In this document: positions 42,708-51,246 of the stretch, in pieces | Layout: every line of letters starts with the position of its first letter | Position numbering within the stretch: position 1 is the stretch's first letter | Assembly (NCBI GenBank): GCA_017623575.1 | Contig: JAGAOS010000061.1 | Location: 1-51,726, forward strand | Reading direction: 5' to 3' | Length of the DNA: 51,726 nt | Source: Clostridia bacterium | Lineage (GTDB): Bacteria > Bacillota > Clostridia > Oscillospirales > Acutalibacteraceae | Translations under genes and position numbers: made by a program | Notes under the pieces: model-generated | What the model saw: only the letters and a program-made list of their open reading frames with translations | Told to the model about the DNA's origin: nothing | Databases searched by the model: none

Positions 42708-44408
42708 ATGAATAATTCTTCTGTTGAAACACCCATTGAAGAAACACTTAGCACAGAACAAAAAATAAAAGCCTTGCGTGAGGCTATTATGGCATCAAAG
42801 GATCTTGATGATTGGCCAAAGATTCAAGCCTTTGAGCCTAACGGAGAAAACAATTATATATGTATAAGCTACTCCCACAAGGATTATAAACCTGTTTACT
42901 GTGACATTGTTAATATGGCGCTTTCGGGGGTGCGGGTATGGTACGATGAAGGTCTTTCGGCAGGTATTAACTGGCGAAAAGAGGTTGAAAAGCGCATTGC
43001 CGACCCTTGCTGCAGCGGTGTAATATTTTATCTTAGCGAAAATCTTTTCACCAGTAGCTCTATTCAGTATGAAATTAGTCTGATATATAACAAAAAACCT
43101 TTTTTTGCTGTAAATTTAACCGATAAACAGCCCTTTAAAATTCTTCAGGGATGTATAGATAAAATAAACTCCTCTGATGATAATATGGATTGGCTACATA
43201 ATCTGAGCGGTGCCTTTACAGATGCTAAGACCTACCTGCCCTACAACGGCGCCAACCACGATAAAAACCTACTGCGACAGATAAAAAAACAGTTTAATGT
43301 TACTGTAGAGTCGCAAACTCAAACTAAAGCAAGGGCTGAAGCCACCACAGTTGTTCCACCCCAACAAACTAATAATAAAAAGGAAGATACATTTTTAATA
43401 AATGACGGCGTTTTAGAAAAATATATTGGCGAATCAAAATCAGTTATAATCCCCGACTCGGTTAAGATAATTGGCAACAATGCCTTTAAAAACACCGTTC
43501 TGCTAGAGAATGTAACTATACCCGACTCTGTAATCCGCATTGAAAACGGAGCCTTTAGCGAAAACCGATATTTAAAAAGTGTTGTTCTGCCCGCAAGGCT
43601 TGAATATATTGGTGATGAAGCCTTTGCCAATTGTGAAAAGCTTACCAATATTATTTTACCAAACAGCATTACCCACATTGGAAGAAGAGCTTTTGAACGC
43701 TGCTATTCTATTGAAAATCTTGCTTTGCCCGAAGGTCTTACCAAAATAAGCCCCGAAGCATTTATAGGCTGTGGGGGAATAAAAATTTTAACCCTGTCCC
43801 AAAAGCTTACCCACATTGGCGCAAGAGCTTTCTTTGGTTGCAGAAATCTTGAGGCGATTTCAATTCCAAACGGCGTTACACATATTGATGACGGCGCCTT
43901 TGAAAAATGTTCATATTTAAAGGGTATTGCACTGCCTTTTAGCCTGACCTCTTTGGGTGACAATGTGTTTGCTAATTGCCACCTGCTTACCACCGTCACC
44001 CTGCCTGACAGTATAACAAATATTGGAAAAGGTATTTTTGCAAATTGCGGTGAGCTTACAAATGTTATTCTGCCAAACAACCTGACCTATATAAGTAACG
44101 AAATGTTTTTTGCTTGCTTTAAGCTTGAAGAAATAAATATTCCCAAAAGTGTTACCAATATAGGCTGCTGTGCTTTTGAGGATTGCCTGAATCTTCATAA
44201 CATTGAACTGCCTGACGGACTTATAAGCATTGGTGACAACGCTTTTTCCCACTCCGGAATTTATGGAATCTTTATCCCCGCAAGTGTTACAGAAATCGGA
44301 CGAAGGGTTTTTAAGGGCACATTTATACGCCCCACAATACACACTCCACGCGGTTCATATGCCGCAAAATACGCCCGCAAGCGATTTATGAAGGTTAATT
44401 ACATTTGA
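42708..44408 (+). CDS. TIR-domain / BspA-type leucine-rich-repeat protein
   Basis: A 566-residue cytoplasmic-looking protein without signal peptide or membrane segment. Residues 49-195 are TIR-like: ICISYSHKDY (51-60), VWYDEGLSAGINW (77-89) and SSIQYEISLI, where E122 fits the catalytic Glu of TIR NADases. A polar linker (about 200-230) leads to some 13 BspA-type leucine-rich repeats (unit LPxSITxIGxxAFxxCxxL) to about 545. Bacterial TIR proteins include NAD-cleaving defence effectors; TIR-LRR fusions are poorly known. RBS TTTGGAGG. It is transcribed divergently from the dehydratase. Confidence 0.85.
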   Translation: MNNSSVETPIEETLSTEQKIKALREAIMASKDLDDWPKIQAFEPNGENNYICISYSHKDYKPVYCDIVNMALSGVRVWYDEGLSAGINWRKEVEKRIADPCCSGVIFYLSENLFTSSSIQYEISLIYNKKPFFAVNLTDKQPFKILQGCIDKINSSDDNMDWLHNLSGAFTDAKTYLPYNGANHDKNLLRQIKKQFNVTVESQTQTKARAEATTVVPPQQTNNKKEDTFLINDGVLEKYIGESKSVIIPDSVKIIGNNAFKNTVLLENVTIPDSVIRIENGAFSENRYLKSVVLPARLEYIGDEAFANCEKLTNIILPNSITHIGRRAFERCYSIENLALPEGLTKISPEAFIGCGGIKILTLSQKLTHIGARAFFGCRNLEAISIPNGVTHIDDGAFEKCSYLKGIALPFSLTSLGDNVFANCHLLTTVTLPDSITNIGKGIFANCGELTNVILPNNLTYISNEMFFACFKLEEINIPKSVTNIGCCAFEDCLNLHNIELPDGLISIGDNAFSHSGIYGIFIPASVTEIGRRVFKGTFIRPTIHTPRGSYAAKYARKRFMKVNYI

Positions 44409-44905: not shown

Positions 44906-45469
44906 TCAGGTTATAGACTCAATGCCTGCTATAAGTCTATCATAATCCAGCGCGCCGATTTGCTTAGCGGCAAGCTCGCCCTCGGAATCAATAAAAATGG
45001 TTGTGGGATAGCTTGTTATATAATAATCGTTTACCCCCTCCATATAAATATCAAAGAAAACATCAAACTCATAACCGTTATCTTCAATATACTTTCTTGC
45101 TGATTCCTCAGTTTCTCTTAATCCGTCAGTAACATTTAGCATTATAAACTGTACATCGGGGTATTCCTTGGCGGCTTTGTCAAATTCGGGCATTTCTTCT
45201 TTACAGTAATAACACCAGGTAGCCCAAAAATTTAAAACTATCGGCTTACCCTTAAAATCCGAAAGATTTACCTCTTTACCGTTATAATCCAGCATAGTAA
45301 AATCGGGCACTGCAAGAGCCTCATCCTCTGCAGTATTCTCTCCCGAAGCAACCTTGGAATTGTTGTTTTCTTTATAATCCTTACTTAGTCGGTTGTACAA
45401 AACGGTAGACCCGCCTATAATACCAGCCAACAGCACCAAAATTAATAACCATTTAAACATATTTTTCAT
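44906..45469 (-). CDS. Membrane-anchored TlpA/ResA-like thioredoxin
   Basis: A 187-residue protein. One N-terminal membrane anchor (residues 6-24) is followed by a linker and a thioredoxin fold with active-site WCYYC (near 85-89) and the cis-Pro loop SYPTTIFID. Outside the cell it would reduce or exchange disulfides. The ccdA gene directly upstream supplies electrons across the membrane, so the pair forms a thiol-reducing relay. Targets are unknown; no cytochrome c genes are in the window. Confidence 0.92.
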   Translation of the reverse strand: MKNMFKWLLILVLLAGIIGGSTVLYNRLSKDYKENNNSKVASGENTAEDEALAVPDFTMLDYNGKEVNLSDFKGKPIVLNFWATWCYYCKEEMPEFDKAAKEYPDVQFIMLNVTDGLRETEESARKYIEDNGYEFDVFFDIYMEGVNDYYITSYPTTIFIDSEGELAAKQIGALDYDRLIAGIESIT

Positions 45470-45485
45470 AAAATCATCTCCCTGT

Positions 45486-46145
45486 CTAGCCCAGTAATGC
45501 TAAAAATTTGCCGAACATACCGGTAGCCATAAGCACACCCACCGTTACAAGCAATGTGCCGCTTATGATATTAATTATTTTATAATGTTTTTTTATAACA
45601 GCAAAGGCGCCTTTAAGCTTGTCTATTAATATTGCGCTTACAAAAAAAGGTATTCCAAGACCAAGGGAATACAGAAGAAGCATAAAAATGCCCTCCATAA
45701 CACTTCCCCTGCTTGCCGCCAGCATAAGGGCAGAGCCTAAAAACGCACCTACGCAGGGGGTCCATCCAATGGAAAATACAACGCCGAATAATGCTGATGA
45801 AAAAAATCCAAGATTTTCTGTTTTAGCCGAATTACTGCCCTTAAAAATATTAAGCTTAAAAAAGCCTAAATAGTTAAGACCAAAGATAATAACAATAAGA
45901 CCGGTAACAATATTAACTGCTACACTGTACTCTTTTAAAAATCTGCCAAAGCTACCCGCAAGGGCACCAAGAAGTATAAAAACAGCCGTGAAGCCCAGTA
46001 TAAAGCCTAAGGCATTTGTAATTACCTTTTTAGTGTTTTTTTCACTTCCACCCGCAAAATACGAAATGTAAATAGGAAGCATTGGTAAAAGGCAGGGTGA
46101 AACAAAGGTTATAATTCCTTCTAAAAATGAAATAAAATATTGCAT
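45486..46145 (-). CDS. ccdA: CcdA-type thiol-disulfide transporter
   Basis: A 219-residue protein with six membrane helices. The paired redox cysteines are in TFVSPCLLPMLP (helix 1) and IGWTPCVGAFLG (helix 4). CcdA passes electrons from cytoplasmic thioredoxin to extracytoplasmic TlpA-like proteins, and that partner follows after 16 bp. RBS AGGGAGG. Confidence 0.93.
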   Translation of the reverse strand: MQYFISFLEGIITFVSPCLLPMLPIYISYFAGGSEKNTKKVITNALGFILGFTAVFILLGALAGSFGRFLKEYSVAVNIVTGLIVIIFGLNYLGFFKLNIFKGSNSAKTENLGFFSSALFGVVFSIGWTPCVGAFLGSALMLAASRGSVMEGIFMLLLYSLGLGIPFFVSAILIDKLKGAFAVIKKHYKIINIISGTLLVTVGVLMATGMFGKFLALLG

Positions 46146-48867: not shown

Positions 48868-50940
48868 TTACTTAACAAGTCTTGGTACCTGCCAACTGTC
48901 ATCACTGCGCTCGGGCGCGCCCTCAAGCAAACTCTCTCTTGTAAAGGGCTGCTTGCGCTCATCCTCGCGGAGGACATTGGTCATAGGCATAACATATATC
49001 ATTTCTTCGGTTTCGTCGGTATTAACTTGACTTAGCTTTGCTTCGCTTTCGCTCATTTTTGCAAAAACCTTATTCATAACCGATTCCTCAGCTTCTGTAA
49101 GGGCAAGCTGATTAAGCTGCTGTGCGTTAGAGAAGGTAGAACGCTTTTCACCCTGCCTTTTAGAACCGCCTGCCGCCGCACGGGTAGCAAGCGCGCTGTT
49201 GTTACCAAGCAAATGAACATCTTCCAACTGCTGATTTGTAACCTCGCTTGGTGCGCCGAGTAAAAGGTCTTGAGCATTACCGTTTAAGGGGAAGGCAATA
49301 ACCTCAAGAATTTTTTCCTCATCGGTTAAAAGCATTACCATACGGTCAATACCGGGAGCCATACCTGCGTGGGGCGGTGCGCCATACTGGAAGGCGGTAT
49401 AAAGGGCATTAAAGCGGGATTTAAGCTCATCCTCAGAGTAGCCTGCAATCTCAAACGCCTTTTTCATTATATCAATATCGTGGTTACGAACTGCGCCCGA
49501 TGCAAGCTCAATACCGTTACAAACAAGGTCGTACTGATAGGCAAGAACCTGCGTGGGGTCATCACCGAGGAGGGCATCCATACCGCCCTGAGGCATTGAG
49601 AATGGGTTATGGGTGAAGATGGTATCGCCTGTTTCCTCATCAATTTCATACATTGGGAAGTCTACAATAAAGCAGAATTCAAAGGCATCGTCTTTAATAA
49701 GGTCAAGCTGTTTTTTATCAGCCAGCCATGTGCGGATGTGACCTGCCTTTTTCTCGGCATCATTTTTCTTATCATCACAAATAAAGAATAATGTTTCGCC
49801 CTCTTTAACACCTGTAAGCACAGTGATTTCTGCCTTTTTTTCATCGGTTAAGAATTTGGCAATAGGACCTAAGAAAACGCCATCCTTAAGGGCGATATAG
49901 CCAAGACCGCCAAGACCAACCTCAGGTGAAGTGGCAAACTTTAAAGAATCCTCAAAGAATTTGTTGGATTTACCCTGACAGTTTGCAACAATACCGCGAA
50001 CAGGCTTACCCCTGAAGGCAGGGAAATTAACATCGGCAAAAAAGTCGGTTAAATCACAGATAATAAGGGGGTTTCTAAGGTCGGGCTTATCAGAGCCGTA
50101 TTTCATCATAGACTCTGCATAGGTAATGCGGCGGAAGGGCTTTTCGGTTATTTTTTTATTAGAGAAGGTTTTAAAGGTATCATAAACAACATCCTCGCAA
50201 ACCTCTAAGACCTCTTCTTGAGTGGCAAATGCCATTTCAAAGTCGAGCTGATAAAATTCGCCGGGCGAACGGTCGGCGCGGGCATCCTCATCGCGGAAGC
50301 AGGGTGCAATCTGAAAATATCTGTCAAAGCCTGAAACCATAAGCAGCTGTTTAAACTGCTGAGGTGCCTGAGGCAGAGCGTAGAATTTACCCGGATGCTT
50401 ACGGCTGGGTACAAGGAAATCTCTGGCACCCTCAGGTGAAGATGCGGTAAGAATGGGGGTTTGCATATCTAAAAATCCCTTGTCCTCCATTTTATTGCGC
50501 AGATGACGGATTATTTTAGAGCGAATAACAAGATTTTCGTGATTTTTGGGGTTACGCAAATCAAGATAGCGGTATTTAAGGCGAAGCTCATCCTTACTGT
50601 TGCGGGATGCTCTTACCTCAAAGGGAAGCATATTATAGCTTTTGCCAAGAACATCCAAGCTTTCGGCAACAAGCTCAACTGTACCCGTTTCAATTTTGGG
50701 GTTTACGGTTTCGGGGTCGCGTTTTTCAACCTTACCCGTTACCGAAATAACCGTTTCGCGGTTCACATTTTTTAAAAACTCCTCATTGTGAACAACAACC
50801 TGTGTAACACCTGTGTAATCGCGCAGGTCAATAAATATAACGCCGCCGTGATCGCGTACAACATCAACCCAGCCTGCAAGCTGAACGGTTTTGCCGATAT
50901 GCTCATCACGAATATCGTTACAAAATAGTGTTCTGTACAT
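48868..50940 (-). CDS. aspS: Aspartyl-tRNA synthetase fused to GatC
   Basis: A 690-residue protein. Residues 1 to about 575 are a bacterial-type AspRS: anticodon-binding OB fold (VQLAGWVDVVRDHGGVIFID), class II motif 2 (FRDEDARADRSPGEFYQLD) and motif 3 (GIDRMVMLL). After a Gly/Ser/Ala linker, residues 602-690 form a complete GatC: a helical start (QLNQLALTEAEE), then PMTNVLREDE and the GAPERSDDSWQVPRLV end typical of GatC. No separate gatC exists in the operon. The start at 50940 has TAGGAGG seven bases upstream; a frame to 51054 runs into the T-box terminator. Confidence 0.94.
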   Translation of the reverse strand: MYRTLFCNDIRDEHIGKTVQLAGWVDVVRDHGGVIFIDLRDYTGVTQVVVHNEEFLKNVNRETVISVTGKVEKRDPETVNPKIETGTVELVAESLDVLGKSYNMLPFEVRASRNSKDELRLKYRYLDLRNPKNHENLVIRSKIIRHLRNKMEDKGFLDMQTPILTASSPEGARDFLVPSRKHPGKFYALPQAPQQFKQLLMVSGFDRYFQIAPCFRDEDARADRSPGEFYQLDFEMAFATQEEVLEVCEDVVYDTFKTFSNKKITEKPFRRITYAESMMKYGSDKPDLRNPLIICDLTDFFADVNFPAFRGKPVRGIVANCQGKSNKFFEDSLKFATSPEVGLGGLGYIALKDGVFLGPIAKFLTDEKKAEITVLTGVKEGETLFFICDDKKNDAEKKAGHIRTWLADKKQLDLIKDDAFEFCFIVDFPMYEIDEETGDTIFTHNPFSMPQGGMDALLGDDPTQVLAYQYDLVCNGIELASGAVRNHDIDIMKKAFEIAGYSEDELKSRFNALYTAFQYGAPPHAGMAPGIDRMVMLLTDEEKILEVIAFPLNGNAQDLLLGAPSEVTNQQLEDVHLLGNNSALATRAAAGGSKRQGEKRSTFSNAQQLNQLALTEAEESVMNKVFAKMSESEAKLSQVNTDETEEMIYVMPMTNVLREDERKQPFTRESLLEGAPERSDDSWQVPRLVK

Positions 50941-51023
50941 TAAAAAACCTCCTAGTATTTTCCTGTAGTTCAAATTTACAAATAGGAATTTTTGTATTTT
51001 AGGAAACCAAAAAAGGCCATTTG

Positions 51024-51246
51024 TAAAAAATAAAAAGTCCCGAGAATATAACATTTATATTCTCGGGACGAGTAAATAAAAATTAACCCGCGGTGCCACC
51101 CGTATTGATATGCAAAAAACATATCCGCTTTAATATTAAGTTTTAGGTCTGCCGCGAAGTGTTGCCATAGCTACTACTCACCTGTTGCGCTTTCAGTCGG
51201 TGACGCAAATTCCCTGTAAGGCTTTCCACAAAACTATGGGTCTTCA
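51024..51246 (-). ncRNA. T-box riboswitch, probable Asn specifier, upstream of aspS-gatC
   Basis: The minus-strand leader contains the canonical T-box core GGGTGGCACCGCGGG (complement of 51087-51101) and a terminator with perfect 13-bp arms (51037-51069) and a T-rich tail. The base after UGG is C, pairing with the G discriminator of Asn, Asp and Glu tRNAs. In stem I the loop above a GAAG/CTTC helix reads GGCAACA, giving AAC (Asn) followed by A as the likely specifier. No GAC or GAU lies in that loop. Confidence 0.88.

Follow-up and report, generated by a model that had tools for sequence, protein, structure and literature searches.

To our knowledge, the known tRNA-dependent amidotransferases generate ammonia in their amidase subunit and then channel it. 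In the Asn-transamidosomes of Thermus and Helicobacter, AspRS, tRNA-Asn and GatCAB are associated non-covalently and GatA is a working glutaminase; the chains of PDB 3kfu, which were met in our GatA and GatB comparisons, presumably belong to such an Asn-transamidosome. In Clostridium acetobutylicum, the tRNA-dependent Asn pathway is reportedly under T-box control, and its operon is said to consist of separate genes including a catalytic GatA. In archaeal GatDE, a GatB-type kinase/transamidase is served by the asparaginase-family protein GatD for the formation of Gln on Glu-tRNA(Gln). Asparagine synthetases are known in an ammonia-dependent (AsnA) and a glutamine-dependent (AsnB) form. Also, annotation already recognizes chains in which AspRS is continued by GatC, namely the bifunctional AspRS/GatC of the NCBIfam model NF009460 (PRK12820), which is silent on GatA. 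An excerpt of PMC4206432 groups C. acetobutylicum with the organisms possessing GatCAB plus AsnRS, i.e., as having kept AsnRS.

In this study, we analyzed a stretch of 51,726 nucleotides from a Clostridia bacterium (contig JAGAOS010000061.1), hereafter the window, which carries on its minus strand and in this order a putative T-box leader, an aspS-gatC fusion, a short gatA and gatB (Table 1). This operon, here called the cassette, probably encodes a dedicated Asn-tRNA(Asn)-forming transamidosome in which GatA is dead and ammonia is either free or provided by a partner enzyme. As in Thermus and Helicobacter, AspRS and GatCAB would cooperate on tRNA-Asn, and the cassette differs by the covalent link and the dead GatA. 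With C. acetobutylicum it would share tRNA-dependent Asn synthesis, T-box control and a second AspRS encoded with GatCAB, unlike that operon with its separate genes and catalytic GatA. With archaeal GatDE it would share a GatB-type kinase/transamidase supplied by an asparaginase-family protein, for which an ORF is often found nearby, but it retains GatC and the dead GatA, and the partnership is only hypothesized. AsnA and AsnB illustrate the same donor switch as proposed here, although they are unrelated proteins and yield free rather than tRNA-bound Asn. Compared with a canonical GatCAB, GatB and GatC are present in the cassette, whereas a glutaminase GatA is absent.

Table 1. Features of the cassette in the window (positions of the window; all on the minus strand).
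Feature	Position	Strand	Evidence or remark
Putative T-box leader, Rfam RF00230	51061..51256	-	model aligned over its whole length (1-219) at 46.2 bits, below gathering score 93; E 6.9e-9
Putative specifier AAC (Asn codon)	51161..51163	-	in an internal loop (3′ side) flanked by helices CCATAG/CTATGG and GAAG/CTTC
Shine-Dalgarno sequence AGGAGGT	50947-50953	-	read from the letters
Fused aspS-gatC, one open frame	48868-50940	-	690 aa, ATG at 50940
AspRS portion (residues 1-577) with OB-fold, class II core, GAD insertion and His31	49210..50940	-	Pfam/TIGRFAM profiles
Linker, residues 578-601, variable among relatives	49138..49209	-	alignment; bounds are the TIGR00459 end (577) and the TIGR00135 start (602)
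GatC domain, residues 602-690	48871..49137	-	PF02686 at 614-685, TIGR00135 at 602-689
Stop codon of the fused frame	48868-48870	-	
Short GatA, predicted pseudo-amidase, 394 aa	47666..48850	-	profile matches and alignment
GatB, 472 aa	46245..47663	-	exceeds the cut-off of TIGR00133; Zn cysteines and the residues for ATP/Mg conserved

The sequence-only reading had proposed that the AspRS carries a complete GatC domain at its C-terminus and that no free gatC lies between aspS and gatA. Both proposals were borne out: in the single frame, the domain search placed a GatC match in the region of residues 600-690, PF02686 being aligned over its whole length (profile 1-66 of 66, E 3e-9, 37.4 bits versus a cut-off of 23) and TIGR00135 reaching 46.3 bits, slightly below its cut-off of 47.1, and the ORFs of the window include no separate gatC between the two genes. 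The remainder of the chain is a bacterial-type AspRS (Pfam tRNA-synt_2, 374.7 bits) with an OB-fold anticodon domain and a GAD domain. NF009460 aligns with residues 5-660, but at 473 bits versus a cut-off of 1379, which is below membership. The remark that no characterized example was known stands in so far as neither a characterized AspRS-GatC fusion nor an amidase-dead GatA is reported in the literature searched, outside which most subscription papers lie; it has to be qualified in that the protein type exists as an annotation.

To judge the GatA, residue roles were taken from the yeast GatA description in section 16 of PMC4027206 and transferred by alignment with the canonical GatA of the window's genome. 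The window's GatA lacks about 80 residues at its N-terminus, and the KDNI of intact GatAs has become VDDTI; its catalytic Lys is replaced by Asp, the loop with the cis-Ser is lost with Lys at that column, and the glutamine-binding Arg and Asp are replaced by Val and Gly, while the nucleophile Ser is retained. Among 97 distinct short GatAs, the column of the catalytic Lys (position 98) contains D in 90, E in 4 and a gap in 3 fragments not reaching it. None of the 97 has a GGSSGG[SA] loop carrying the cis-Ser (Ser is still found in that column in six), and none has the glutamine-binding Arg or Asp; the nucleophile is still S in 28, and is A in 58, T in 7, Y in 3 and F in 1. Out of five key residues, 65 of these proteins have kept none, 30 one and 2 two, and Lys, Arg and Asp are missing in all 12 further carriers of a class-wide sample as well. 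In the same alignment, the motif is present in 11 of 12 full-length GatAs, the exception being the half-eroded GatA of locus L047 described below. The short GatA therefore lacks what a glutaminase was required to have, i.e., Ser-cisSer-Lys plus the glutamine-binding Arg and Asp, and the genes now named gatA in these genomes would not be glutaminases.

GatB presents a different picture. The cysteines C23, C25, C39 and C42, which we take to be Zn ligands, and E10, H12, E125 and D191 are each conserved in at least 90% of 94 GatBs; the roles of the H and E residues follow the account of yeast GatB in section 16 of PMC4027206. Of the residues invariant in the canonical GatBs compared, 78 of 96 are kept in the cassette GatBs, whereas only 39 of the 93 invariant in the canonical GatAs compared are kept in the short GatA. 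For the short GatA, dN/dS is about 0.1 (0.096-0.142, seven pairs; GatB 0.050-0.105, three pairs). The catalytic loss is thus selective while the gene is kept, and a reading of the short gatA as a pseudogene was ruled out by these values. Judged by residue conservation, the predicted active site of GatB is thus shown to be intact, and the short GatA is shown to be a putative pseudoenzyme conserved under purifying selection.

For recurrence, 11 short GatAs were aligned and used to scan genomes, and the best 80 of 563 loci were taken; according to their source titles, all of these stem from uncultured genomes, most of them from ruminant gut or rumen. The search of related genomes suggested by the sequence-only reading confirmed the fusion in other metagenome-assembled genomes (MAGs): among the best 80 of 563 loci, AspRS and GatC are fused in 67, encoded by separate neighboring aspS and gatC genes in 9, and cut off by a contig end in 4. 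With 12 further loci, seven of which are copies of loci among the 80 or of another fetched locus, and the window itself, the numbers are 73 fused, 15 separate and 5 cut off, and the operon order is conserved in 88 of these 93 loci, the remaining five ending at contig edges. A class-wide sample of 391 genomes contained 13 carriers, 12 of them new, and in 10 of the 12 the two genes are fused. In a quick GatB tree (short search, no bootstraps), the 94 GatBs that have a dead GatA as neighbor all group in a single clade (SH-aLRT 99). The fused state has to change twice on this tree, and the fused rows fall into two clades, one of 52 and one of 16.

Two further loci, in which GatA is half-eroded or intact, bear on the history. 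L047, whose GatB is sister to that clade, has an aspS-gatC-gatA-gatB operon with a half-eroded GatA of 441 aa (L047:5926-7251, genome G019), in which Lys is changed to Thr and the cis-Ser loop is gone, but the nucleophile Ser and the Arg are retained. L180 (genome G417) encodes a third, independent fusion of 696 aa (L180:1185-3275; TIGR00135 76 bits) followed by an intact GatA of 477 aa (L180:3294-4727). Because this fusion stands beside an intact GatA, fusion and amidase loss are separate events. The series of intact GatA, half-eroded GatA, dead GatA and AspRS-GatC fusion shows a complex being rebuilt stepwise.

Several neighboring genes were recorded. An AlaRS-like editing protein (tRNA_SAD, DHHA1) is encoded to the right of the cassette on the same strand in 19 of 94 loci, e.g., L120:8738-9904. 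By eye, the window has a CcdA-like/thioredoxin-like pair adjoining gatB (44906-46145, minus strand) and an ORF with a TIR-like N-terminus followed by leucine-rich-like repeats (42708-44408, plus strand). In L139, L142, L152 and L160, the cassette with the dead GatA is followed in tandem by a complete canonical set of gatA and gatB, the gatB of L160 running off the end.

In the predicted fold of the window's leader, the lower helix is topped by a loop that contains AAC. RF00230 was matched in five relatives at 39-53 bits, with E between 3e-5 and 7.5e-9; these scores likewise miss the gathering score, and none of 11 loci had a T-box above it. The antiterminator motif is present in 80 of 96 leaders, most of the 16 without it being unfused early-branching carriers. 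AAC occupies the putative specifier position in 78 of the 80 motif-bearing leaders (73 by pattern and 5 by eye; missing in L160 and L169), or in 69 when recounted with a stricter pattern, and it is the constant triplet because the letters on both sides vary. In the regions of four asnS and 16 other aspS genes, taken as controls for the specifier reading, no T-box motif was found. Within the synthetase, His31, which we take to be the mark of an AspRS accepting tRNA-Asn, is present in each of the 95 AspRSs encoded in the operon, 92 of which neighbor a short GatA and 3 an eroded or intact one, whereas all 16 other AspRSs have Leu at this position. Bacterial GatCAB reportedly favors tRNAs with U1-A72. 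Near two fused carriers, tRNA-Asn genes were found, one with U1-A72 (L133:1876-1951) and one with G1-C72 (L156:5-80); in 1.24 Mb searched, including the window and stretches of its genome, there was no tRNA-Asn gene. By its His31, the AspRS of the cassette, AspRS2, would be a candidate for an enzyme that accepts tRNA-Asn.

Whether the carriers have an AsnRS was assessed in an order-level sample of 394 genomes, 17 of which carry a dead GatA (at least 385 bits; next match 286). AsnRS was found in none of the 17 carriers and in 284 of the 377 other genomes, 93 being without it (Fisher 1.5e-10, with kinship ignored), and nine genera (g1, g46, g50, g53, g94, g106, g116, g121, g168) include both AsnRS-less carriers and AsnRS-bearing non-carriers. 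When 24 carriers were inspected gene by gene, 23 had no AsnRS above the cut-off; the exception, G021, also has an AsnRS, and the cassette is therefore not obligatory there. In 16 of the 24, the dead GatA is the only one (none other at E≤1e-20) and is accompanied by one GatB; seven of these genomes are at least 90% complete (G093, G126, G162, G179, G187, G211, G335). GlnRS is present in 15 of the 16. G220 (88% complete) has neither AsnRS nor GlnRS above the cut-off and only the dead GatA with its GatB; if complete, this genome raises the question of how Gln-tRNA is made. AsnB is above its cut-off in 15 of the 24 carriers, in which free asparagine could thus be made with no AsnRS to load it. The class IIb matches of the carriers have the sizes of AspRS1, AspRS2 and LysRS (LysRS by size only), and a hidden AsnRS was rejected because no additional class IIb enzyme is evident.

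The window's genome itself contains a free gatC-gatA-gatB set on contig C51, i.e., two GatCAB sets in all, and a second AspRS that is 42.5% identical to the operon copy. By eye, an NAD synthetase-like ORF (L002:1960-2694) lies divergently beside this canonical gatC. With a completeness of 70%, its own lack of AsnRS is weak evidence, and given the two GatCAB sets it would not bear out the argument by itself; the case rests on the relatives, whose gene content shows the cassette as the likely replacement of AsnRS.

The sequence-only reading had regarded the fusion as a covalent link between the enzyme that mischarges tRNA-Asn and the amidotransferase that corrects it, i.e., a built-in transamidosome. 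The single chain and an operon serving Asn-tRNA(Asn) formation are well supported, given the T-box codon, the loss of AsnRS and the His31-type second AspRS, but the glutaminase site that such an amidotransferase would use is lost. A physically built-in transamidosome is what the covalent AspRS-GatC link suggests, and the following course is proposed. AspRS2, as the second AspRS accepting tRNA-Asn, would charge it with Asp; the fused GatC domain would clamp AspRS2 to GatA and GatB, and the mischarged tRNA would be handed directly to GatB, which would activate the Asp side chain with ATP and then amidate it. GatA would have been retained as a scaffold for GatB and GatC and no longer as a glutaminase. 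Since GatA could not hydrolyze glutamine, ammonia would have to come from outside the complex, either as free ammonium, which is plentiful in rumen and hindgut, the source of most relatives, or released by a separate enzyme; the assembly, this ammonia source and the tRNA specificity of AspRS2 are all inferred. The transamidosome would have switched its donor from glutamine to ammonia. For the homologous yeast GatFAB, an excerpt of PMC4027206 states that ammonium chloride can replace glutamine in vitro. Within this explanation, we lean towards free ammonium, which is favored over supply by an asparaginase, and consider a dedicated protein partner rather doubtful.

A partner of this kind would be a divergent asparaginase-family protein (PF00710) that, in a GatD-like manner, provides GatB with NH3 by hydrolysis of Asn or Gln, leaving the dead GatA as a mere adaptor. 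Of 113 loci searched, 37 contain an ORF for such a family member, and 36 of these belong to the 104 short-GatA loci. In 28 of the 37, the ORF lies within 300 nt of gatB or aspS (21 of these gatB-adjacent on the same strand). By genome search, 21 of 24 carriers have an asparaginase-family protein, that of G220 being a classical asparaginase, and in genus g1 it is present in all five carriers and in none of three non-carriers. The divergent type, assigned manually from E-values of 1e-35 to 1e-20, occurs in 14 of the 17 carriers, in 17 of the 93 other genomes lacking AsnRS and in 1 of the 284 that have it (distribution compared by Fisher test). In addition, the protein of L203 matches GatD at 96.5 bits, slightly above its 92.1 bits with type I asparaginase, both far below the cut-offs. 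The divergent proteins of L095 (L095:7915-8967) and L203 (L203:1223-2146) are roughly equidistant from archaeal GatD and type I asparaginase, and are tied to AsnRS-less genomes. However, asparaginase-family proteins reached only 80.3 and 83.8 bits with the GatD model TIGR02153 (cut-off 324) and are without the N-terminal part of GatD, the gene lies on a different contig in the window's genome, adjacent and unlinked g1 proteins clearly differ, and no such protein was found in G046 (97% complete), G021 and G294. Moreover, the divergent type also occurs in AsnRS-less genomes without a dead GatA, so that it may just recycle free Asn, which would be useful once no AsnRS can use it. On this ground, the asparaginase as sole ammonia source was demoted to a rival, and we consider it unlikely.

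Far less probable is a loan of glutaminase activity, in which the intact GatA of a second, canonical GatCAB would serve AspRS-GatC and GatB by subunit exchange. The window's genome and eight others of 29 have a second GatB together with an intact-type GatA, either above the cut-off or fragmented, and in such two-copy genomes an exchange is conceivable; the 16 single-GatB carriers rule it out as a general mechanism. Equally improbable is that the cassette is not an Asn-tRNA synthase at all but a decaying operon, a regulator or a tRNA chaperone in genomes with an undetected AsnRS. A GatA without most of its catalytic residues would fit this view, but the dN/dS values, the preserved GatB site, the operon order conserved in a set that includes the best 80 of 563 loci, the nine genera switching between AsnRS and cassette, and the sizes of the class IIb enzymes argue against it. 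Finally, although the relatives in the 80-locus set (best 80 of 563) are MAGs, nine of them with unfused neighbors, the chance that an assembly or sequencing error joined two genes is negligible and was ruled out by the recurrence of the fusion in 67 of these 80 loci, in 10 of the 12 new loci of the class-wide sample and in two clades of the GatB tree.

The preferred reading thus remains an Asn-tRNA(Asn)-forming transamidosome with a dead GatA. On a wider scale, we think it rather likely that a GatCAB lineage in gut and rumen Clostridia has turned its amidase into a pseudoenzyme, was welded at least twice to AspRS via GatC and has repeatedly replaced AsnRS, which would make it a widespread ammonia-dependent tRNA amidotransferase, possibly with a GatD-like asparaginase acting in trans. 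The new element would be an amidase-dead, AspRS-linked GatCAB standing in for AsnRS. With AsnRS lost and the tRNA-modifying half retained, the asparagine codons of the cell appear to depend on the cassette. If true, this would be the first tRNA-dependent amino acid synthesis without its own glutaminase. It would become testable whether tRNA-dependent amidation needs glutamine hydrolysis, which roles GatA has besides that of a glutaminase, and whether ambient ammonium may feed translation directly.
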